From NCBI GenBank assembly GCA_903843125.1, contig CAIMOR010000254.1:1-64000 (forward strand): DNA of 64,000 nucleotides. The letters are read 5' to 3'. The DNA comes from an uncultured Rhodospirillales bacterium (lineage in GTDB: Bacteria > Pseudomonadota > Alphaproteobacteria > Acetobacterales > Acetobacteraceae). Position numbers and translations under genes: made by a program. The notes under the pieces are model-generated. The model worked only from the letters and a program-made list of their open reading frames with translations. It did not search any database and was not told the DNA's origin. This document shows positions 47,802-62,087 of the stretch, in pieces (within the stretch, counting starts at the first letter, position 1; the number at the start of each line of letters is the position of its first letter).

Positions 47802-47819
47802 TTGGCACGACTCGTGCTT
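47802..47819 (+). promoter_or_regulatory. Putative sigma-54 promoter TTGGCAC-GACTC-GTGCTT
   Basis: GG at 47804-47805 and GC at 47816-47817 with exact N10 spacing; ATG 47867 about 50 bp downstream. Confidence 0.6.
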
Positions 47820-49865: not shown

Positions 49866-51038
49866 ATGAACCACATCATGCGCGACATGGCCGAGCCGGC
49901 CGACCTGTTCGACCCGAGGCACTACACCGGCGTGCGCCGGCCGTTCTATTCGGCCGAGACGCTGCCGCCGTGGTGCTACACCTCCGAGAAATGGTACGCC
50001 CGCGAGAAGGAAACCATCTTCAAGAAATACTGGAACTGCCTGGGCCATGAGAGCCGGGTCCCCGATGTCGGCAGCTACATCACGCTGAGCTTCGCCGACG
50101 TGCCGCTGATCATCGTCCGCGGCAAGGACCAGGTGGTGCGCGCCTTCATCAACAGCTGCTCGCATCGCGGCTCCGCCATCCTGGCAGGCGAGGGCACCTG
50201 CGCGCACACGATGAAGTGCCCCTACCACGCCTGGGCCTTCGACTTCGAAGGGGCGCTGGTCGGCACGCCGCTGATCACCGAGGAGGAGCACTTCCAGAAG
50301 GCCGAGCATGGCCTGGTGCAGATCCGGCTGGAGATCTGGTGCGGCCTGATGTGGATCAACTTCGACGCCAGCGCCCAGGCCTTGACCGACTACCTTGGCG
50401 ACCTGACCCAGCGCGTGGCGCCGTGGAAGACCGAGGAGATGGTCTGCGTCGCCCGCCGCGAATTTCCGGTGAAGGCCAACTGGAAATTCTATGCCGAGAA
50501 TTGGAGCGACGGATACCACGTGCCCTTCGTGCACCAGACCACGCTGAACAAGAAGCGCGTCAGCAAGCGCGACTTCCACGACCCCAGCGTGCATGTCGGC
50601 AACTACCTGATGCACTACACCTATTTCAGCGGCAGCCGCGGTACGCCGGAAGGCCAGAAGAAGCTGCCGGAGCTGGACCTGCCGGACGAGCTGAAGATCG
50701 GCACCTTCTTCCCCTACGTCCACAGCAACGCGATGATCGGCTTCGCCATCGACATGGTGAGCTGCACCGAGATCATCCCCGAAGGCCCCGGCGCCTGCCG
50801 GCTGTTCACCTCCACCATGGTGCCGAAGAGCACCGCCGCGCTGCCGGACTTCCAGGAGACGCTGGACCTGTACCTGAAGTACAGCGACATCGTCCGCGAC
50901 GAGGACGTGATCGCCGCCGAACGCCAGCAGCTGGGCGCGCTTTCCGCCTATAACCGCGCCGGCTGCTTCACCCCGCAGGATAAGCTGGTGCATGACTACG
51001 ACCTGTGGATCCTGGACCGCGTGATCGGCAACGGATGA
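49866..51038 (+). CDS. Rieske [2Fe-2S] ring-hydroxylating oxygenase alpha subunit-like protein
   Basis: CSHRGSAILAGEGTCAHTMKCPYHAWAFDFEGALVG; NWKFYAENWSDGYHVPFVH. Confidence 0.95.
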   Translation: MNHIMRDMAEPADLFDPRHYTGVRRPFYSAETLPPWCYTSEKWYAREKETIFKKYWNCLGHESRVPDVGSYITLSFADVPLIIVRGKDQVVRAFINSCSHRGSAILAGEGTCAHTMKCPYHAWAFDFEGALVGTPLITEEEHFQKAEHGLVQIRLEIWCGLMWINFDASAQALTDYLGDLTQRVAPWKTEEMVCVARREFPVKANWKFYAENWSDGYHVPFVHQTTLNKKRVSKRDFHDPSVHVGNYLMHYTYFSGSRGTPEGQKKLPELDLPDELKIGTFFPYVHSNAMIGFAIDMVSCTEIIPEGPGACRLFTSTMVPKSTAALPDFQETLDLYLKYSDIVRDEDVIAAERQQLGALSAYNRAGCFTPQDKLVHDYDLWILDRVIGNG

Positions 51039-51832
51039 TGGCTACGCCGCTGATCGCCGTCCGCGAGCTCAGCAAGGTCTATCCGACCGCGAAGGGGGAG
51101 CGCGTCCAGGCGCTCTCCCGTATCAACCTGGAAATCGGCCAGGGCGAGTTCGTCTCTCTCGTCGGCCCCTCCGGCTGCGGCAAGACGACGGTGCTGCGCA
51201 TCCTGGCCGGGCTGATCGCCGACTATACCGGCGATGTCAGCGTCAGCGGCAAGGCGCTGCACGGGCCGAGCCGCGAGGTCGGCGTGGTGTTCCAGGATGC
51301 CAACCTGATGCCCTGGCGGACGGCGCTGGCCAACGTGATGCTGCCGGCCGAGGTGCTGGGGCTGAACCGCAGGCTGGCCCGCGCCCGCGCGCAGGAACTG
51401 CTCGGCATGGTCGGGCTGGAAGGCTTCGAGCGGAAGCTGCCGGGCGAGCTTTCCGGCGGCATGCGCCAGCGCGTCGCCATCGCCCGCGCCCTGATCCACG
51501 ACCCCGCCGTGCTGCTGCTCGACGAGCCCTTCGGCGCGCTGGACGCGATGACGCGCGACACGATGAACGTGGAACTCGCGGCCATCGCCGCGCGGTCGAA
51601 GAAGACCGTCTTCCTCATCACCCATTCCATCGCGGAAGCCGTGTTCCTCAGCGACCGCGTGCTGGTCATGTCGTCCCGCCCCGGCCGCATCGTGGAGGTG
51701 ATCCCGGTGGCGTTGCCGCGGCCCCGCGGCCTCGACATCATCGCCGACCCCGCCTTTGCCGCCACCGTGCTGCGCATCCGCCGGCTGCTGGATGGCGACA
51801 CCGCCTCTGCCTTGCCCAGCATCGCCCACTGA
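51035..51832 (+). CDS. ABC transporter ATP-binding protein (SsuB/TauB-like)
   Basis: GPSGCGKTTVLRILAGL; LSGGMRQRVAIARALIHDPAVLLLDEPFGALDAMTRD. Confidence 0.95.
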   Translation: MMATPLIAVRELSKVYPTAKGERVQALSRINLEIGQGEFVSLVGPSGCGKTTVLRILAGLIADYTGDVSVSGKALHGPSREVGVVFQDANLMPWRTALANVMLPAEVLGLNRRLARARAQELLGMVGLEGFERKLPGELSGGMRQRVAIARALIHDPAVLLLDEPFGALDAMTRDTMNVELAAIAARSKKTVFLITHSIAEAVFLSDRVLVMSSRPGRIVEVIPVALPRPRGLDIIADPAFAATVLRIRRLLDGDTASALPSIAH

Positions 51833-51844
51833 CGGAGCCTGGCC

Positions 51845-52684
51845 ATGAGCGAAGCGACCGCGCCTGAGCTGAACCTGCCCGCCACGCCCATGCCGCGGCT
51901 GCCCAGCTGGTTGCGCGCGCGGCCCGAACTGGCGTTGACGCCGCTGGTCTTCGTCGTCGTGCTCGGGCTCTGGCAGGCGGTGGTTAGCCTGGGCCTGGTC
52001 AGCCAGTACGTGCTGCCGGCGCCCTCCAACATCGGCTTGGCCCTGTTCGAGGGGCTGACGAGCGGGCTGTTCGTCCAGCACGGCCTGGTGACGCTGGGAG
52101 AGGCGGCCAGCGGCTTCGCCATCGCGGTGACCGCCGGGCTGGTCATCGCCACGCTGGTCGCGGAAATCCGGCTGCTGGAGCGCGCCGTCTATCCCTACCT
52201 GGTGATGCTGCAGACCATGCCGAAGATCGCCCTGGCGCCGCTGCTGGTGGTGTGGTTCGGCTTCGGCTCCTCCTCCAAGGTCGCGGTGGCCGCGATCATC
52301 TCCTTCTTCCCGATGCTGGTCACCACGCTGGCGGGCATGCGCGCCACGGACAAAGGCCGGCTGGACGTCCTGCGTGCGCTCGGCGCCGGGCCGATCCGCT
52401 GTTTCGCCCTCGCCAAGCTGCCGGATGCGCTGCCGCATATCTTCTCCGGCCTGTCCATTGCGGTGGTGTTCTGCATGACGGGCGCCATCGTCGGCGAGTT
52501 CGTCGGCGCCAGCGCGGGGCTGGGCTATCTCATCGTGCAGGCCAATGCGCGGATGAACATTCCGCAGGTCTTCGCCATATTGCTGGCGCTCGGCGCCATC
52601 GGCGTTGCCGGCTACGCGCTGGTGCAGGGGCTGCGCCGCCGCCTGCTGTTCTGGGAACCGAAACAGGAGATGAGCCGCCCATGA
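51845..52684 (+). CDS. ABC transporter permease (SsuC/TauC-like)
   Basis: YLVMLQTMPKIALAPLLVVWFGFGSSSKVAVAAIISFFPMLVTT. Confidence 0.93.
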   Translation: MSEATAPELNLPATPMPRLPSWLRARPELALTPLVFVVVLGLWQAVVSLGLVSQYVLPAPSNIGLALFEGLTSGLFVQHGLVTLGEAASGFAIAVTAGLVIATLVAEIRLLERAVYPYLVMLQTMPKIALAPLLVVWFGFGSSSKVAVAAIISFFPMLVTTLAGMRATDKGRLDVLRALGAGPIRCFALAKLPDALPHIFSGLSIAVVFCMTGAIVGEFVGASAGLGYLIVQANARMNIPQVFAILLALGAIGVAGYALVQGLRRRLLFWEPKQEMSRP

Positions 52685-53733
52685 TGAACCGCCGCACCTT
52701 GCTGGCCGCCGGCACCGCGCTGCTGGCTGCACCGGCCATTGGCCAGACCCTGATCAAGACCAGCTTCGGCCCCACCACCACCGACATCTCCACCGGCCAC
52801 GCCGCGCATTCCTCGTTGCCCAAGGCGCTGGGCTATTGGGCGCAGGAAGGGCTGGAGGTGGATGTCTTCGGCATTGCCGGCAACACCGCGGGGCTGCAGC
52901 TGATCTCCGCCGGCAACATCGATTTCATCACCATCGCACCGGATGAACTGCTGGTGGCGCGGCATCGCGGCATGCCGCTGAAGGGCGCCTATATCCACGC
53001 GCGCCAGCCGATCGGCCGCGTGGTGGTGCCGAAGGCCGGCGGCATCACCAACCTGGCGCAGCTGAAGGGCAAGACGGTCGGCATTCCCGTCATGGGGCCG
53101 AACCCCTACGCCGCGGCCACGCTGCACGAAGCCGGCGTCAACATGACCACGGACCTGACCATGGTCGCCACCGGCACCGGCGCCCCGGCATTGCTCGCGC
53201 TGCGGCGCGGCGATATCGCGGCCTGGCTGAGCTGGGACACCGCCGTCGCCGGGCTGGAGAACCGCGGCATGGAGTTCACCGAGTTCCGCCCCAGCTTCTT
53301 CAGCGAGCTCGTTGGCAACTGCGTGATCGGGCGGGAGGAGATGTTGCGCACCAAGCCGGAGATGGCGGTGAAGATGTGCCGCGCCATCGCCAAGGCGGCG
53401 CATTTCGGCCTGACCAATCCGGAGGCCGCCATCCAAATCCACTGGAAGGTCTACCCCGCGACCAAGCCGCAGGGCGGCGACCCCGCCAAGGTGATGGAGG
53501 AGGCCAAGCGCGTGTTCCTCTCGCGCTTCAGCAGCTTCGCGGTGCCGGCGGGTACGCCCTATGGCGCCAGCACGCCGGCGCAGTGGACGCGGGTGGTGCA
53601 GCAGCTGCAGGCCTCCAACGACCTGCCGGCGGGGTATGATGGCACCACCGCCTTCACCAGCGAGTTCATCGCCGCGATCAACGACTGGGACCGCGAGGCG
53701 GTGGCCGCGCAGGCCCGCGCCTGGGTGGGGTGA
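52681..53733 (+). CDS. ABC transporter substrate-binding protein (NMT1/SsuA/TauA-like)
   Basis: MMNRRTLLAAGTALLAAPAIGQTLIKTSFGPTT...; KALGYWAQEGLEVDVFGIAGNTAGLQLISAGNIDF. Confidence 0.93.
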   Translation: MMNRRTLLAAGTALLAAPAIGQTLIKTSFGPTTTDISTGHAAHSSLPKALGYWAQEGLEVDVFGIAGNTAGLQLISAGNIDFITIAPDELLVARHRGMPLKGAYIHARQPIGRVVVPKAGGITNLAQLKGKTVGIPVMGPNPYAAATLHEAGVNMTTDLTMVATGTGAPALLALRRGDIAAWLSWDTAVAGLENRGMEFTEFRPSFFSELVGNCVIGREEMLRTKPEMAVKMCRAIAKAAHFGLTNPEAAIQIHWKVYPATKPQGGDPAKVMEEAKRVFLSRFSSFAVPAGTPYGASTPAQWTRVVQQLQASNDLPAGYDGTTAFTSEFIAAINDWDREAVAAQARAWVG

Positions 53734-54992
53734 TGGCGATGATCGACCTGCTGCTGCGCGGGGCGCGCGTGATCGACCCCGCCAATGGCGTGGACCGGGT
53801 GGCCGATGTGGGCGTGGATGCCGGGCGCATCCACAGCATCGGCACCGCGGTGAAGGCGCGGCGCATGGTGGATCTGGCGGGCGCCATCCTCGCGCCCGGC
53901 TTCATCGACATGCACGTGCATTGCTATGAATGGGTGACCAATTTCGGCCTGCCGGCGGATGCGGCCGGCGTGCATTCCGGTGCCACCACCATCGTGGACC
54001 AGGGCAGCACCGGCGCCTGGACGCTGGGCGGCTTCAAGGCCTTCATCGCCGACCCCGCCAAGACCGATGTGCGCGCCTTCACCTCCATCAACCTGGCCGG
54101 TGCGTTGCAGGGCGGCATGCAGGGCACCACGCTGCACAACCCGGGCATGGTGGACGTGCCGGCGCTGCTGGCCATTGCCGCCGAGCATCCGCGCCTGGTG
54201 CGCGGCATCAAGTGCCATTGCGAAAGCGGCAGCCAGTCCCACTGGGGCACGGAAGTGCTGCTGAAGGCGGTGGAGGCTGGGCACGAAGGCGACCTGCCAC
54301 TGTACGTCCATACCGGCGAGCTGTTCCCGGTGGACGAGGCCAACCGGCCGCCCCCCAACGCCGTGATGGCGCAGATCGTACCCTACCTTAAGCCGGGCGA
54401 CACGCTGGCGCATGTGTATTCCTGCATGCCCGATGGCATCATGGCGCGGCATGAGGAGGTGCCGGACTGGATTTTCGCGGCGAAGGGAAAGGGCGCGCTG
54501 TTCGACCTCGGCCATGGCATCAACTTCGCCTTCGACATCGCCCGCAAGATGATGGCGAAGGGCGTCTATCCGGACACGCTGGGCAGCGACGTACATGCGG
54601 ATTTCGGCAGCTACCACGACTTCTCCATCCTGAACTATTCGCTGCTGGGCGGGCTGAACAAGGTGGTTGCCCTCGGCATGCCGCTGGTGGCGGCAATCCG
54701 CGCCCTGACCGCGACGCCGGCGCGCACGCTGCGCGATCCCAGCATCGGGCATCTCGGCGTCGGTGCGCGGGCGAATATCACGGTGCTGCGCGAGGTGCCG
54801 GGCAGCTGGACCTTCACCGATACCTGGAAGCAGGAGCTGACGGTGGCGTCCCGCCTGCTGCCGGAGCTGGTGGTGATGGATGGCGACCCGATCATCCCCG
54901 ACTGCATGCTGCTCTCCGACCTGATGGCCCCGCACGAACGGCCGCGCGGCATCACCCGCCCCCACGACCTGCCTGCTGGAACCCGCGCATGA
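53730..54992 (+). CDS. Cyclic amidohydrolase (dihydroorotase/N-acyl-D-amino-acid deacylase-like)
   Basis: DLLLRGARVIDPANGVDRVADVGVDAGRI; GAILAPGFIDMHVHCYEW; start GTG 53730 or ATG 53733. Confidence 0.9.
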   Translation: MMAMIDLLLRGARVIDPANGVDRVADVGVDAGRIHSIGTAVKARRMVDLAGAILAPGFIDMHVHCYEWVTNFGLPADAAGVHSGATTIVDQGSTGAWTLGGFKAFIADPAKTDVRAFTSINLAGALQGGMQGTTLHNPGMVDVPALLAIAAEHPRLVRGIKCHCESGSQSHWGTEVLLKAVEAGHEGDLPLYVHTGELFPVDEANRPPPNAVMAQIVPYLKPGDTLAHVYSCMPDGIMARHEEVPDWIFAAKGKGALFDLGHGINFAFDIARKMMAKGVYPDTLGSDVHADFGSYHDFSILNYSLLGGLNKVVALGMPLVAAIRALTATPARTLRDPSIGHLGVGARANITVLREVPGSWTFTDTWKQELTVASRLLPELVVMDGDPIIPDCMLLSDLMAPHERPRGITRPHDLPAGTRA

Positions 54993-55474
54993 GCCTTTCC
55001 GACAAACTCGCTGCCCGCACCGCGCGCTTCGAGGAGCGCCGCGCCGACTGGACCGTGTTCGGCTTCGAGACCGCGAAGAACCCAAAATTCGCGCGCATCC
55101 AGCGGCGCTACCTCGGCGCCAGCGGCTCCACCGACCCGAGCGACCTGCGCGGCAGCATTCCCGCCACCGCCTTCACCATGTCGATCCAAACGGTGCCGGT
55201 GGGCAACATGATCCCGATGCACTGTCACGAAACCGAGGAGGTGTTCTTCATCCTCGACGGCCAATGCCTGGTGAAGTGCTACGAGGGCGGCGAGGTCGCC
55301 GAACTGCACCTGGGCAAATGGGACCTGGTCCAGCTGCCGGTGGGCCTGCAGCACGAGTTGTTCAACACCGGCGAGGTCGATTGCCAGGTGCAGACCATGC
55401 TCTCGGCACCGAAGCCGCTGCGGCCGCAGTACAACGACCCCGAGTTGCTGGCGCTGCAGGCCGCGGTACCGTGA
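54989..55474 (+). CDS. Cupin domain protein
   Basis: GNMIPMHCHETEEVFFILDGQCLVKCYEGGEVAELHLGKWDLVQLPVGLQHELFNTG. Confidence 0.9.
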   Translation: MSLSDKLAARTARFEERRADWTVFGFETAKNPKFARIQRRYLGASGSTDPSDLRGSIPATAFTMSIQTVPVGNMIPMHCHETEEVFFILDGQCLVKCYEGGEVAELHLGKWDLVQLPVGLQHELFNTGEVDCQVQTMLSAPKPLRPQYNDPELLALQAAVP

Positions 55475-56283
55475 GCGCGCTGCGCGTCAGTCTGCCCATG
55501 TACAACCTGCCGGAGATGCGCGCGGTCAACGCGGCGTTCTGGCAGGCGATGCGGACGGAGTTGGCGCTGCGCGGCATGGCGGGGCTGCCGGAGGCGCCGG
55601 AGTTCGACCGCGCCCCGGTGCCCGGCAGCATCGAGCCGGAGACGCTGTTCACCCAGGTCTGCGGCTGGCCACTGCAGACCATCTATGCCGGTCAGGCCAG
55701 GTTGCTGGGCGTGCCGGTGTACAATGCCCCGCATTGCGCGGGACCGACGCATGCGGGCGTGTTCGTGGTTCATCGCGACAGTGGCTTCGCCTCGCTGGCA
55801 GACCTGCGCGGCTGCGTCTTTGCCTTCAACAGCGTGCACTCGAACTCCGGCATGAACCTGCCGAGGCGGGCGCTGGCGGGGCTGGGCGCGCGCGCCCCAT
55901 TCTTCAGCGCCATCACCGAGACGCATAGCCAACCCGCGAACATCGAGCGCGTGGCGAAGCGCGACGTGGACGCAACCTGCGTCGACTGCGTGACCTACGC
56001 CTTCTACTGCCGGCATCGGCCGGCGTTGGGCCAGCAGACCCGCGTGCTGGCGCCGACGCCGCCGAGCCCGGCGATTCCCTTCGTCACCAGCATCGCCACG
56101 CCGGATGACACGGCCGCGGTGCTGCAGGCGGCGCTGCGCGCGGTGGCGCAGGAGCCGCGCTGGGCCGAGGCGCGCGCCGGGCTGCTGCTGGCCGATATCG
56201 TGGCGCCCGACGCGGCGGCGTACCGGGTGCAGCTGGCCTACACGGCGGAGGCCGCGGCGCTGGGCTACCCGGTGCTGGCCTAA
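55471..56283 (+). CDS. PhnD-like phosphate/phosphonate-type substrate-binding domain protein without obvious signal peptide
   Basis: VSALRVSLPMYNLPEMRAVNAAFWQAMRTELAL; DLRGCVFAFNSVHSNSGMNLPRRAL; GTGA overlap with cupin stop. Confidence 0.82.
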   Translation: MSALRVSLPMYNLPEMRAVNAAFWQAMRTELALRGMAGLPEAPEFDRAPVPGSIEPETLFTQVCGWPLQTIYAGQARLLGVPVYNAPHCAGPTHAGVFVVHRDSGFASLADLRGCVFAFNSVHSNSGMNLPRRALAGLGARAPFFSAITETHSQPANIERVAKRDVDATCVDCVTYAFYCRHRPALGQQTRVLAPTPPSPAIPFVTSIATPDDTAAVLQAALRAVAQEPRWAEARAGLLLADIVAPDAAAYRVQLAYTAEAAALGYPVLA

Positions 56284-57044
56284 CCGAACTCCCCTGCCGG
56301 CATCGGCGCGCCGTACCAGCGGGCGAAGGCCAGCTCCAGCAGCAGCACCCCGCCGTACAGTGCCACGCCGATACCGCAGAGCAGCGTGATCGCGGCCAGC
56401 ACCAGCGCGGTCTCCCCCAGGGAAGCCGCGAACATCACCACATAGCCCAGCCCCTGCTGCGCGGTCACGAACTCACCGATGACGACGCCGAGCAGCGCCA
56501 TGGTGGCCGCCGTCTTCATGCCCGCCAGCAGTTGCGGCACCGCGTAGGGCAGGCGCACGCGCAGCACCGTCTGCCACCAGCCGGCGCCCAGCACGCGGCA
56601 GAGCCGCAGCGCACCGCTGTCGGTGCCGGCCAGCCCCGCGGTCGTGCCGATCAGCACCGGGAAGAAGGCGATGAACACCGCGAAGGCCAGCCGACACGGC
56701 GCGCCCACGCCGAGCCAGACCACGAACAAGGGCGCCAAGGCCATCTTCGGCACGATCTGCAGCGCCAGCACCCAGGGCATGGCCACGCGCCGCAGCAGCG
56801 CAGCACTGCTCAGCGCCGCGCCCAGCGCGGCACCGAACAGGCAGGCCAGCAGAAAACCCAGCGCCGTTTCGCGCGCGGTGGAAAGCCCCTGGTCGAGCAG
56901 GATGTCGGGGTGGCGCAGCAGCGCTTCCAGCACCGCGCTCGGCGGCGCCAGCAGGTCCGGCGAAACCGCCTTGCCGCGCACCAGCGCTTCCCAGCCCAGC
57001 AGCATCGCCAGCACCGCCAGTGCGGAGGTCAGCGCGGCCTTCAT
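56280..57044 (-). CDS. ABC transporter permease (SsuC/TauC-like)
   Basis: LALQIVPKMALAPLFVVWLGVGAPCRLAFAVFIAFFPVLIGT. Confidence 0.93.
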   Translation of the reverse strand: MKAALTSALAVLAMLLGWEALVRGKAVSPDLLAPPSAVLEALLRHPDILLDQGLSTARETALGFLLACLFGAALGAALSSAALLRRVAMPWVLALQIVPKMALAPLFVVWLGVGAPCRLAFAVFIAFFPVLIGTTAGLAGTDSGALRLCRVLGAGWWQTVLRVRLPYAVPQLLAGMKTAATMALLGVVIGEFVTAQQGLGYVVMFAASLGETALVLAAITLLCGIGVALYGGVLLLELAFARWYGAPMPAGEFG

Positions 57045-57814
57045 CGCCGCGTGCCCCAGCGGCGGCGTGCCGCCGTCTCGGCCAGACCGACCGCGCCATA
57101 CAGCGCCGCACCCAGCAGGCACAGCACGGCAAGCGCGGCGAAGATCAGGGGCGTGTCGGACCGTGCCTGCGCCTGCATCACCATGTAGCCCAGGCCGGCA
57201 TTGGCCGAGATGAACTCGCCGACCGTGGCGCCGGTGAAGGCCATGGTCGCCGCCACCTTGGCGCCGGCGAAGACATAGGGCATCGAGGTCGGCAACCGCA
57301 CATGCCAGAACGCCTGCCAGGCGTTGCCGCCGGCGGCGCGGCACATGCGCAGCTGATTGGGGTCCGCCGCGCGCAGCCCGGCCAGCGTGCCCACCGCCAC
57401 CGGGAACACGCTGACGAACACGGCGAAGGCGAACAACGAAGGCAGCCCAATGCCGAGCCAAACGACGAAGAGCGGGCCGAGCGCGACCTTCGGCAGCAGC
57501 TGGAACAGCAGCAGGTTCGGGTACAGCAGCCGGTTCAGCAGCGGCGACAGCATCATCACCGCGGCCAGCACCATGCCGGCCGCCACCGCCACCAGGAAGG
57601 CACCGCAGGCCGCGCCGCCGGTGGCCAGGGCGTGGCGCGCCAGCACGGGCGCGGCCTGCCACAGGCTGCTGGCAACGCTGCCCGGCGAGGGCAGCAGAAC
57701 CTGCGGCACATGGGCAAAGCGCACCGCCGAATCCCAGGCCAGCAACACCAGCACGCCGATGGCCAGCGGCAGCCAGGGCAGCCGCGCCGGCGCGGCCAGC
57801 GTGGCGCCACTCAT
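57041..57814 (-). CDS. ABC transporter permease (SsuC/TauC-like), tandem paralogue
   Basis: LLLFQLLPKVALGPLFVVWLGIGLPSLFAFAVFVSVFPVAVGT. Confidence 0.93.
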   Translation of the reverse strand: MSGATLAAPARLPWLPLAIGVLVLLAWDSAVRFAHVPQVLLPSPGSVASSLWQAAPVLARHALATGGAACGAFLVAVAAGMVLAAVMMLSPLLNRLLYPNLLLFQLLPKVALGPLFVVWLGIGLPSLFAFAVFVSVFPVAVGTLAGLRAADPNQLRMCRAAGGNAWQAFWHVRLPTSMPYVFAGAKVAATMAFTGATVGEFISANAGLGYMVMQAQARSDTPLIFAALAVLCLLGAALYGAVGLAETAARRRWGTRR

Positions 57815-58596
57815 GCCATGTTCCGCGCGATGACGCCGCGGAGATGCGCGACCACGGCGCCGAACTCGGCACTGTCCGCCAAGGCCGGCGCGCGCGGGCG
57901 GGGGAAGGGCACCACCAGCTCCTCCGCCACCGTCGCCGGCCGGCGGCTCATCACCAGCACGCGGTCGGCCAGCAGCACCGCCTCGCGGATGGAATGGGTC
58001 ACGAAGATCGCGCTCTTCTGGGTGTGCTGCCACAGGTCCAGCAGCACGTCGCCCATCTCGTCCCGCGTGATCGCGTCCAGCGCGCTGAACGGCTCGTCCA
58101 TCAGGATCAGGTCGGGGTCCAGCACCAGCGCGCGGCAGATCGCGGCGCGCTGGCGCATGCCGCCGGAGAGTTCGTGCGGCCGGGCGCCCTCGAACCCCTT
58201 GAGGCCAACCGTCCCGATCAGCCGCATCGCCTGGTCCAGCACCTTGGCGCGCGGAATGCGGCGGATGGTGGCGGGGAACAGCACGTTGTCCAGCACCGAA
58301 AGCCAGGGCAGCAGGGTGGCATCCTGGAACATCACGCCGGTCTGCCGGTGCGGGCCGACCAGCTCCACCCCGCCGCGCTCAAGCCGTCCTTCGCTTGGCA
58401 CTTCGAGCCCGGCCGCCATCATCAGCAGCGTGGACTTGCCGCAACCGGAAGGACCGAGGATGGCGACGAACTCGCCGCGGCGGACGGTGAAGCTGACGCT
58501 TTCCACCGCGCGCAACGGCACCGGGCGGGTGGGGAAGGTCTTCCCCACCGCGTCGAAGCGGATGGCGTCGGCGACCAGCGTCGGCGCTTCGGGCAT
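57811..58596 (-). CDS. ABC transporter ATP-binding protein (SsuB/TauB-like)
   Basis: GPSGCGKSTLLMMAAGLE; LSGGMRQRAAICRALVLDPDLILMDEPFSALDAITRDEM. Confidence 0.95.
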   Translation of the reverse strand: MPEAPTLVADAIRFDAVGKTFPTRPVPLRAVESVSFTVRRGEFVAILGPSGCGKSTLLMMAAGLEVPSEGRLERGGVELVGPHRQTGVMFQDATLLPWLSVLDNVLFPATIRRIPRAKVLDQAMRLIGTVGLKGFEGARPHELSGGMRQRAAICRALVLDPDLILMDEPFSALDAITRDEMGDVLLDLWQHTQKSAIFVTHSIREAVLLADRVLVMSRRPATVAEELVVPFPRPRAPALADSAEFGAVVAHLRGVIARNMA

Positions 58597-59678
58597 CAGC
58601 CGAACAGCGTGCGGAACTCGGCCGCCAGCTGCGCCGCGTGCTGCCACTCGGCCGCGGTCATCGTTATCGGGCCGACGAACTGGTTGCTGAAGGCGGTGGC
58701 CGGGTCGGGCCTGGTATCGCCGGCAACCGTCAGGTAGCGCATCGTGCTCTCGACCATGCTGGCGGCATCGGCCGGGTCGGTCCAGCCGAGCGGATGGCTG
58801 AACGCCTTCTCCGGCGTGGCGCCCATCTGCGCCATGCCCAGGCCGACGCGCGCCTGTTCCTGCGCGGTGCGGGAGAGTGCCGCTTCCGGCACCGCGCGGC
58901 CGAAGATGCGCAGCGCCTCGGCCGGATTGCCCAGCATGAACTTCTGAGCCTTCATCAGCCCGTTCACGATCCCCTGCGTCGTGCGTGGGTCGCTGCTCGC
59001 GCGGTCCTTCTGCGTCATGACCGTGTTGCCGTAGAACACGATGCCGACCGCGCTGTACAGGAAGGTGCGCACGTTCACCCCCTGCGCCACGTAGACCGGC
59101 AGCATGGAAGTGGCGAAGCCGGTGATGCCATCCACCTGCTTCTCGGTCAGCACGCGCTGGCGAACGTTGTTGTCCACCGTGGAATGCTGGACCTTGCTCT
59201 CGTCGATGCCCGCGGCATGGGCATAGGCGCCCCAGAACGGGTAGTCGCCTGAAGCCGCGGTGGACGCCAGCTTGTGGCCCATGATGTCGGCCGGCTTGCG
59301 CACCGGGCTTTCCGCCAGCACCACCATCGCCATCATCACGTCGTAGGACATGGTGGCCACCTGTACCAGCGGCAGCCCCTTGGCGGCCTGCTGCAATCCG
59401 GCCGAGGCGGCAGCGATGCCGTAGTCGAACCGCCCGGCGCCGATCGCCTGCGCCGCGATGGTGGAGCCGGTGCCGCGGGCGATCTCCACGTCCAGCCCTT
59501 CCTCGGCCCAATAGCCATTGGCCTTGGCGACATAGGCGATCAGGTTGGGGCCTTCCGGCACCCACGGCAGCGTGAAGGAGACCTTCTTCATCGCCTGGGC
59601 GCGGCCGAAGGCCGGCACCAGCGCGGGCGCCGCCAGCAGGCCGAGCGCGGCGCGACGGGTGAAGGGGGTGCGGCTCAT
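58596..59678 (-). CDS. ABC transporter substrate-binding protein (NMT1/THI5/SsuA-like)
   Basis: MSRTPFTRRAALGLLAAPALVPAFGRAQ Tat-like signal; YVAKANGYWAEEGLDVEIARGTGSTIAAQAIGAGRFDYGIA. Confidence 0.93.
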   Translation of the reverse strand: MSRTPFTRRAALGLLAAPALVPAFGRAQAMKKVSFTLPWVPEGPNLIAYVAKANGYWAEEGLDVEIARGTGSTIAAQAIGAGRFDYGIAAASAGLQQAAKGLPLVQVATMSYDVMMAMVVLAESPVRKPADIMGHKLASTAASGDYPFWGAYAHAAGIDESKVQHSTVDNNVRQRVLTEKQVDGITGFATSMLPVYVAQGVNVRTFLYSAVGIVFYGNTVMTQKDRASSDPRTTQGIVNGLMKAQKFMLGNPAEALRIFGRAVPEAALSRTAQEQARVGLGMAQMGATPEKAFSHPLGWTDPADAASMVESTMRYLTVAGDTRPDPATAFSNQFVGPITMTAAEWQHAAQLAAEFRTLFG

Positions 59679-59732
59679 GGTGTGGCTCCCGGCGTCAGGC
59701 GCCCGAGACGGGCGGTTCTGCCCGATTGCATC

Positions 59733-59748
59733 GCAAGTGTCGTGCCAG
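59733..59748 (-). promoter_or_regulatory. Putative sigma-54 promoter CTGGCACG-ACAC-TTGC
   Basis: Minus strand, GG-N10-GC exact; in 78-bp gap upstream of SBP ATG 59678. Confidence 0.68.
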
Positions 59749-59756
59749 CACCCGGC

Positions 59757-60182
59757 TCAGCCGGTGGGGGCGATGCCCTCCGGGCGATAGACCAGCAGGT
59801 CGATCTCCACCAGGGCGTCGCGCGCCAGGCCGGTGGTGCCGATGCAGGTGCGTGCGGGCAGCCGGCCGGGGGCGAAGTAGCTGGCGTAGGTGGCGTTCAT
59901 CGCCTCGTAGTCGCGCTGGAACTCGGTCAGGAACACCCGGGCCTGAGCCACCATGGAAAAGTCGCAGCCCAAGCCCGCCAGCACCAGTTTCAGATTGGCC
60001 ATCACCGCATGGGTCTGCGCCACCACGCCCGCGGGCAACGGCAGGGTGTTGTCCACCGGGTCGCACGGCATCTGGCCGGTGATGAAGGCCCAGGGACCGA
60101 CCGAGACGGCATGGCTGAACGGCGCCACGCGGTCGGGGCCATTGTCGAGCGTGTGGAACAGCATCGGCGGGGGCAGGGTCAT
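59757..60182 (-). CDS. RidA family protein
   Basis: SHAVSVGPWAFITGQMPCDPVDNTLP; ARTCIGTTGLARDALVEIDLLVY. Confidence 0.92.
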   Translation of the reverse strand: MTLPPPMLFHTLDNGPDRVAPFSHAVSVGPWAFITGQMPCDPVDNTLPLPAGVVAQTHAVMANLKLVLAGLGCDFSMVAQARVFLTEFQRDYEAMNATYASYFAPGRLPARTCIGTTGLARDALVEIDLLVYRPEGIAPTG

Positions 60183-60240
60183 CGCGGCCTCGTCAGGGGA
60201 AGGGGTGGCTGTGTGGTATTGGACTTGCTTCGCCGCCGGC

Positions 60241-60735
60241 ATGCCTGAAGCCCATGATCACCGGCACCTCTCGGCGGAAGACCTGGCGGCGCTGCTGCTG
60301 GAACGGCCCGGCGTGCTGGTCCGCCGCCTGCACCAGATCCATTCCGCCATGTTCGCCGAGGAATGCGCCGTCTTCGGCGTGACCCCGGTGCAGTACAGCC
60401 TGCTCAGCCTGGTGGCGGCCTCTCCGGGGCTGGACCAGGGCGGCGCCGCGGCAGCGCTGCGGCTGGACCGCTTCACCACGGCGGATGTGATCAAGCGGCT
60501 GGTCGCGGCGCGGCTGCTGCGGGTTGCCGCCGGGGCGGACCGGCGCACCCGCCTGCTGCGGCTGACCGATGACGGCCACGAGGTGCTGGCCGCCATGCAG
60601 CCCAGCGCCGCCCGCGCCCATAACCGCCTGGTGGAACCGCTGCCGCCGCGCGAACGGGCGGCGCTGCTGCGGATGCTGAAGCGCCTGGTGGACCGCCATG
60701 CCGCGCTCGGCGCTGCCGCACCGAAGGTCAGATAG
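60241..60735 (+). CDS. MarR family transcriptional regulator
   Basis: 165 aa; VTPVQYSLLSLVAASPGLDQGGAAAALRLDRFTTADVIKRLVAARLLRVAAGADRRTRLLRLTDDG. Confidence 0.93.
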   Translation: MPEAHDHRHLSAEDLAALLLERPGVLVRRLHQIHSAMFAEECAVFGVTPVQYSLLSLVAASPGLDQGGAAAALRLDRFTTADVIKRLVAARLLRVAAGADRRTRLLRLTDDGHEVLAAMQPSAARAHNRLVEPLPPRERAALLRMLKRLVDRHAALGAAAPKVR

Positions 60736-60763: not shown

Positions 60764-60838
60764 CCGCGAACCGCATCACGCTGCCGCTCCGCGGACCACA
60801 TCAAGTTGCCGCCCCGCGAAACGCATCAGGTTGCCGCT
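60764..60838. repeat. Three imperfect 25-bp tandem repeats overlapping coxS-like 3' end
   Basis: CCGCGAACCGCATCACGCTGCCGCT / CCGCGGACCACATCAAGTTGCCGCC / CCGCGAAACGCATCAGGTTGCCGCT. Confidence 0.85.
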
Positions 60839-61299
60839 CCGCGGCGGGCCGCCAGCACGCCGAGAATGGCGCGCACGATGCCCCGATAGCCGGTGCAGCG
60901 GCACAGGTTGCCGGCCAACTCCTCGCGCACCCGGGCCTCGTCGGCATCCGGCAGGCGCAGCACGATATCGCGCGCCACCACCAGCATGCCCGGCGTGCAA
61001 TAGCCGCATTGCAGGGCATGTTCGGCGCTGAATCCTTCCCGCAGCGCCGCCATCACGGCGTCCTCGCCGAAGCCTTCGATGGTGCACACGCTGGCGCCAT
61101 CGCAGGCGCCCGCATGCATCAGGCAGGAGCGTGCCGGCGCGCCATCCACCTCCACCGTGCAGGCGCCGCAGACGCCGTGCTCGCAGCCGAGATGCGTGCC
61201 GGTCAGCAGCAGCTCGCCGCGCAGCAGGTCGGCCAGGTGGGTGCGCGGTTCGACCTGCACGGTGGCGGCGGCGCCGTTGACGGTGAGGGTGATCTTCAT
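60826..61299 (-). CDS. (2Fe-2S)-binding small subunit of xanthine dehydrogenase/CO dehydrogenase family
   Basis: CEHGVCGACTVEVDGAPARSCLMHAGACDG; LQCGYCTPGMLVVARDI; NLCRCTGYRGIVRAI. Confidence 0.95.
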   Translation of the reverse strand: MKITLTVNGAAATVQVEPRTHLADLLRGELLLTGTHLGCEHGVCGACTVEVDGAPARSCLMHAGACDGASVCTIEGFGEDAVMAALREGFSAEHALQCGYCTPGMLVVARDIVLRLPDADEARVREELAGNLCRCTGYRGIVRAILGVLAARRGAAT

Positions 61300-62087
61300 C
61301 GGGCGGCCTCCGCGGCACGGCGCAGCGCGGTGCGCGCCAGGGCGGCGCGCCAGGGGTCGTCCAGCGCCAGCGCGGCAGCGATGCGGGCCGCTTCAGCGGC
61401 AGGCTCGGCCAGCAGGGCGGCAGCATCGGCGATGACCAGCGGCGCGGCATCCAGCGCCGCCAACACGGCAGTGGGCGGAGCGCCGGGGCGGGCCAGCACG
61501 CAGGCGGTGGCCTTGGAGAACTCGCCGGGCTTGCGGCAGAACTTCCAGTGGCCGAAGCGGGTGCCCGCCGGCAGCGCGGTCAGCTCGATGGCACAGAGCA
61601 ACTCGTCGCCGCGGAGCGCGGTTTCGAAGACCCCCAGCACGAACGCAGCCAGCGGAATGCGCCGTTCGCCCGCCGGCCCCAGCGCCACGGCATGGCCCGG
61701 CAACGCGGGCAGCACCGCGACCCAATCGGCCGCCGGGTCGGCATGGGCCAGGCTGCCGCCAATGGTGCCGCGGTTGCGCACCGGCCGATAGGCGATGCGC
61801 CGCGCCACCCCGGCCAGGATGTCTCCGAGTCGCCCCGGCACCGCGCCATCCTCGATCGCGGCATGGGTCGTCCCGGCGCCGATCCGCACCGTCTCGCCCT
61901 GCACGGTCACGCCGGCATAGCCGGGCAGGTGGCGCAGGTCAGCCACCCGCTCCGGCAGCGCCAGGCGCAGGTTCAGCATCGGGCCGAGCGACTGGCCGCC
62001 GGCAACGGGCCGCGCGCCCTCGGCCAGCAGCGCCAGCGCGGCGGGCCAATCGTCCGGGCGGGCATAGGCGAAGGGAGCCGGCTTCAT
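61296..62087 (-). CDS. FAD-binding medium subunit of xanthine dehydrogenase/CO dehydrogenase family
   Basis: FAYARPDDWPAALALLAEGARPVAGGQSLGPMLNLRLA; YRPVRNRGTIGGSLAHADPAADW. Confidence 0.95.
   Translation of the reverse strand: MKPAPFAYARPDDWPAALALLAEGARPVAGGQSLGPMLNLRLALPERVADLRHLPGYAGVTVQGETVRIGAGTTHAAIEDGAVPGRLGDILAGVARRIAYRPVRNRGTIGGSLAHADPAADWVAVLPALPGHAVALGPAGERRIPLAAFVLGVFETALRGDELLCAIELTALPAGTRFGHWKFCRKPGEFSKATACVLARPGAPPTAVLAALDAAPLVIADAAALLAEPAAEAARIAAALALDDPWRAALARTALRRAAEAAR

Follow-up and report, generated by a model that had tools for sequence, protein, structure and literature searches.

We report that the minus-strand element at 59748..59733 in a 64,000-nucleotide stretch of DNA from an uncultured Acetobacteraceae bacterium (the window) is, judging by its sequence and genomic context, very probably (probability approximately 0.9) a genuine -24/-12 sigma-54 (RpoN) promoter of an ABC transporter operon, the first gene of which encodes a substrate-binding protein (SBP). 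A sigma-54-type promoter for this minus-strand transporter had originally been predicted from the window alone, and the prediction is supported by the presence of rpoN in the genome, by conservation of the site in front of orthologous genes and by the occurrence of sites at expected sigma-54 targets. The site is as such a further instance of a well-known promoter type, and the added value lies in a proposed two-operon regulon that links uptake and catabolism.

The probable sigma-54 promoter and the transporter operon

The minus strand at 59748..59733 reads CTGGCACG-ACAC-TTGC (59748-CTGGCACGACACTTGC-59733, with G as the following base). All 11 specified positions of TGGCACG-N4-TTGC, the sigma-54 consensus as quoted in PMC3224663, are matched with the correct spacing, and the near-perfect motif of the original prediction is thus an exact core (59747..59733). 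Compared to the extended consensus YTGGCACGN4TTGCW there is one mismatch, in the final W, where the site has G instead of A/T. Based on the exact core and its conservation we assign the promoter element to 59732..59748 (minus strand), with the GG at 59746/59745 (-25/-24) and the GC at 59734/59733 (-13/-12). The spacing from the -12 element predicts a transcription start (+1, +/- 2 nt) at 59721 on the minus strand, and with this start the 5' UTR would be approximately 43 nt. The overall minus-strand layout is ...CACCGGCTGAGCCGGGTG-CTGGCACGACACTTGCG-ATGCAATCGGG...CGCCGGGAGCCACACC-ATG. Between the end of the RidA stop codon (59757) and the first base of the SBP ATG (59678) lies a gap of 78 nt, and the C of the -12 element is 54 nt from the ATG; both figures agree with those given originally.

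The SBP gene (58596..59678, minus strand) encodes an NMT1/THI5-type protein (Pfam PF09084, 120 bits) and is followed on the same strand by the gene for a TauB/SsuB-like ABC transporter ATPase (57811..58620; Pfam ABC_tran, with a taurine-type ATPase as best NCBIfam match, below cut-off) and by two ABC permease genes with an approximate extent of 56280..57960 (open reading frames 57041..58033 and 56280..57872, the latter read in its C-terminal part; both named from sequence). Upstream of the site lies the gene for a RidA-family (L-PSP) protein (60242 to 59757, minus strand; Pfam PF01042, 89.5 bits), and divergent from it a MarR-family regulator gene (60244..60735, plus strand; Pfam MarR_2). The predicted 5' untranslated leader (59679..59720, minus strand) has a CGCCCG-tct-CGGGCG hairpin and a GGGAG ribosome-binding site. 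The hairpin (59699..59713, minus strand) is present in four of five members of the genus and missing from L041; it was rejected as a regulatory element, its folding being no better than that of shuffled sequences (z 0.29). The window also carries a second, thematically similar cluster on the plus strand (49866..56283) with genes for a Rieske oxygenase, an ABC transporter, an NMT1 SBP, an amidohydrolase and a cupin.

Frequency of the motif and the genes behind it

The contig that holds the window is 77 kb long and belongs to a 5.56 Mb genome assembly (572 contigs, 98% complete); among named records, Acetobacteraceae metagenome assemblies are closest to this genome. In the window, exact TGGCACG-N4-TTGC occurs once, at the site described here, with 0.06 expected. 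Genome-wide there are 13 exact cores vs one for the reversed pattern, and 48 matches vs nine in the reversed control when one mismatch is allowed; summed over this genome and 14 relatives, exact cores number approximately 140 vs 20 reversed. By a heuristic test for start codons, a position just 5' of a gene was found for 27 of the 46 matches in the genome vs one of nine reversed controls (P 0.01). A chance match in GC-rich DNA would agree with the number of window matches at up to two mismatches, which is not above expectation (six vs 8.1), and since this count does not exceed chance the loose match is uninformative and was dropped as a criterion. The rarity of the exact core, its conservation and its recurrence in rearranged clusters (see below) argue against chance, an explanation that conservation in practice refutes and that we regard as very improbable. 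A weaker sigma-54-like match (TTGGCACGACTCGTGCT, 47802..47818, plus strand) is located 5' of a Rieske oxygenase gene in the window and has GTGC, not TTGC, as its -12 box.

The genes behind the sites in this genome include glnB, SBP genes of several families, genes for luciferase-like monooxygenases (one of which resembles RutA, as judged from the start of its sequence), an amidase, an amidohydrolase, and flagellar rod and hook genes, while those in the relatives include flagellar genes and nifH. Across the genomes this target list is a classical sigma-54 profile. The nifH promoter of one family relative (G059, L112) has a 15-base core, TGGCACGGCACTTGC, identical to the SBP-site core in two genomes of the same genus.

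Conservation in orthologues

In three genomes of the same genus (L039, L040 and L042) the corresponding sequence is CTGGCACGGCGTTTGC or CTGGCACGGCACTTGC with 54-55 nt between the -12 element and the ATG, in a fourth (L041) it is CTGGCACACGGCTTGC and is located farther from the ATG, and in L048, with an SBP orthologue of 75% identity, it is CTGGCACGGCGATTGC. Over six orthologous gaps TGGCAC and TTGC are invariant (10/10 positions) vs 10/54 of the other ungapped gap positions, with a Fisher P of 1e-6 that is indicative since the rows are related. For SBPs at 45-50% identity (Skermanella L043, with 49%, and L049, L051 and L052) a site with at most two mismatches is present no more than 230 nt from the matched region; the sites before the SBP orthologues of L050 and L053 are weaker, and for the remaining orthologues, at 35-41% identity, no site was found in a promoter-like position.

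The spacing also bears on whether most transcription of the SBP operon comes from ridA by read-through, under the divergent MarR regulator, with the site as a minor internal promoter. The ridA and SBP genes are on the same strand, the MarR gene adjoins ridA, and neither a terminator nor a sigma-70-like promoter was found in 59600..60400, which includes the ridA-SBP gap; ridA, located upstream and dispensable for the promoter, may hence be read through into the SBP operon. Yet the gap is expandable in relatives, and in four members of the genus the distance from the -12 element to the ATG is fixed at 54-55 nt while that from RidA to the -24 element varies. Moreover, Skermanella has the site and the SBP operon without ridA directly upstream. 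We therefore consider read-through an unlikely main route, and favour the sigma-54 promoter.

The partner catabolic operon

A second sigma-54 site is located on the same contig (C254), approximately 1.8 kb past the end of the window, with its exact core at 65787..65773 (element 65772..65788, minus strand). It precedes, on the minus strand, the genes for an amidohydrolase (64447..65727, outside the window) and for the molybdenum hydroxylase subunits CoxL (CoxL-type; 62084..64447, extending beyond the window), CoxM (61296..62087) and CoxS (60826..61299). The SBP and amidohydrolase sites are approximately 6.0 kb apart and the pair is kept in three genomes of the same genus. In a member of another genus (G063) the amidohydrolase gene (83% identity) and the SBP gene are on different contigs, and the former has an exact core of its own.

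In Skermanella stibiiresistens (L043, 447..12976) the gene set is rearranged, with MarR and CoxSML divergent from the SBP-ABC genes, a hydrolase, the amidohydrolase and a second NMT1 SBP with a permease; CoxL shows 62% identity and the amidohydrolase, here inside the SBP operon, 47%. Both divergent operons (CoxL and SBP) start with an exact core, i.e. two in 13 kb vs 0.01 expected, and the probable CoxL start (L043:5400) follows one of these cores at 39 nt. This recurrence of sites after gene rearrangement is the strongest evidence that the sites are functional. In three genomes (L026, L091 and L095) the amidohydrolase sigma-54 site is preceded, at a distance of 46-57 nt, by a TGT-N10-ACA dyad (TGTGCGTGCAGCCACA); the dyad resembles a NifA-type site but may be due to chance or be inherited sequence.

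rpoN, candidate activators and enhancer search

The original prediction named a genome without rpoN as one finding that would speak against it. We identified one full-length rpoN, which scores above the equivalog cut-off (NCBIfam TIGR02395, 409 bits vs 277) and has the RpoN DNA-binding domain (PF04552, E 3e-68) and the RpoN box ARRTVAKYRE. All 14 relatives examined also have rpoN, so none could act as an rpoN-free negative control. It had further been suggested to search the flanking genome for a bacterial enhancer-binding protein (bEBP); the 77-kb contig encodes none, and the candidates, NtrC, an FlbD-type protein, a LuxO-like protein and NtrX, are all encoded elsewhere in the genome. Genes under NtrC control do not, as a rule, lie near ntrC, and the absence of an activator gene on the contig is therefore no argument against the promoter. 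NtrC is an NCBIfam equivalog and carries GAFTGA; the FlbD-type protein has GAFSGA and is assigned by its best NCBIfam match, which is below cut-off; and the LuxO-like response regulator (contig C248) has GAFTGA, with LuxO as best NCBIfam match at 577 bits, below the cut-off of 800. NtrX (G000 C55, L035) has no GAFTGA loop (GVEAGSDPVT), and direct sigma-54 activation by this protein is thus unlikely.

Scanning 52 upstream regions for TGCACC-N5-GGTGCA gave no enrichment (z 0.7). Within 260 bp upstream of the SBP promoter the best NtrC-type dyad, at -74, matched 8/12 positions (P 0.71 vs shuffles); the canonical dyad may not be that of this lineage. The DNA within 250 bp upstream of the site is mostly ridA coding sequence. 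The NtrC variants GCAC-N7-GTGC and TGC-N11-GCA, and the NifA-type TGT-N10-ACA, were not enriched as a set over the 52 upstream regions, and the enriched trinucleotide dyads, a list inflated by related sequences, included no palindrome. The nifH site of the family relative mentioned above differs from the SBP site in having a TGT-N10-ACA (NifA-type) dyad 93 nt upstream, while none of that type was found before SBP.

Proposed regulation

In the proposed mechanism, the sigma-54 element would drive the SBP-ATPase-permease-permease operon, with RNA polymerase and sigma-54 waiting at the site as a closed complex until an ATP-hydrolysing enhancer-binding protein opens it. Sigma-54 promoters need such an enhancer-binding ATPase (PMC12316311; established knowledge), and the transporter would consequently be switched on only under the signal of that activator. 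The amidohydrolase-CoxLMS operon is preceded by a site of this type too, so that the import of a compound and its degradation are probably under joint control, and our data fit a sigma-54 regulon for the uptake and catabolism of one, probably nitrogenous, compound.

By genome content NtrC would be the likeliest activator, acting when nitrogen is limiting, and the compound would serve as a nitrogen source. We chose NtrC because of the target list and the report that the nitrate-type ABC components COG0715, COG0600 and COG1116 are enriched as sigma-54 targets in Pseudomonadota (PMC12316311), and we give its role at the SBP promoter an even chance. In Caulobacter, sigma-54 is reported to be without control over the majority of the genes concerned (PMC3224663), so that NtrC control should not be assumed. 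The activator of the sigma-54 promoter might instead be the LuxO-like regulator (C248), or a regulator without a fixed enhancer site, responding to another signal. The GAFTGA of the LuxO-like protein and the failure to find an NtrC dyad near these promoters would agree with this, but the targets, mostly transporters, glnB, amidase and amidohydrolase, have a nitrogen-scavenging profile, the targets expected for FlbD are flagellar and NtrX is without GAFTGA; we consider such an activator possible and less probable than NtrC.

We tentatively suggest, as a somewhat doubtful extension, that a sigma-54 unit common to Acetobacteraceae and Skermanella co-controls an NMT1-type importer and a CoxLMS/amidohydrolase pathway for a nitrogenous compound, through an activator that acts from an enhancer other than the canonical NtrC dyad. 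The literature searched yielded no description of this unit and no paper combining RpoN, Acetobacteraceae and NtrC. Our analysis proposes a regulatory input for an uptake-plus-catabolism cluster in uncultured Acetobacteraceae and hints at a role in providing a nitrogen source. It also illustrates that a by-eye guess of a single promoter site can be checked through conservation and regulon context, while existing knowledge of sigma-54 itself is unchanged.

Comparison with known systems

With known sigma-54 (RpoN) -24/-12 promoters the site has in common the 11/11 core positions, the spacing, the location 5' of a start codon and an rpoN gene in the genome, and it differs from these in that neither a bEBP gene nearby nor a recognisable NtrC enhancer was found. 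The transporter is like the sigma-54-controlled nitrate/taurine-type ABC transporters (PMC12316311) in its NMT1-type SBP, TauB-like ATPase, permeases and the sigma-54 site in front, but what sets it apart is its linkage with genes for a RidA protein, an amidohydrolase and a CoxLMS molybdenum hydroxylase.
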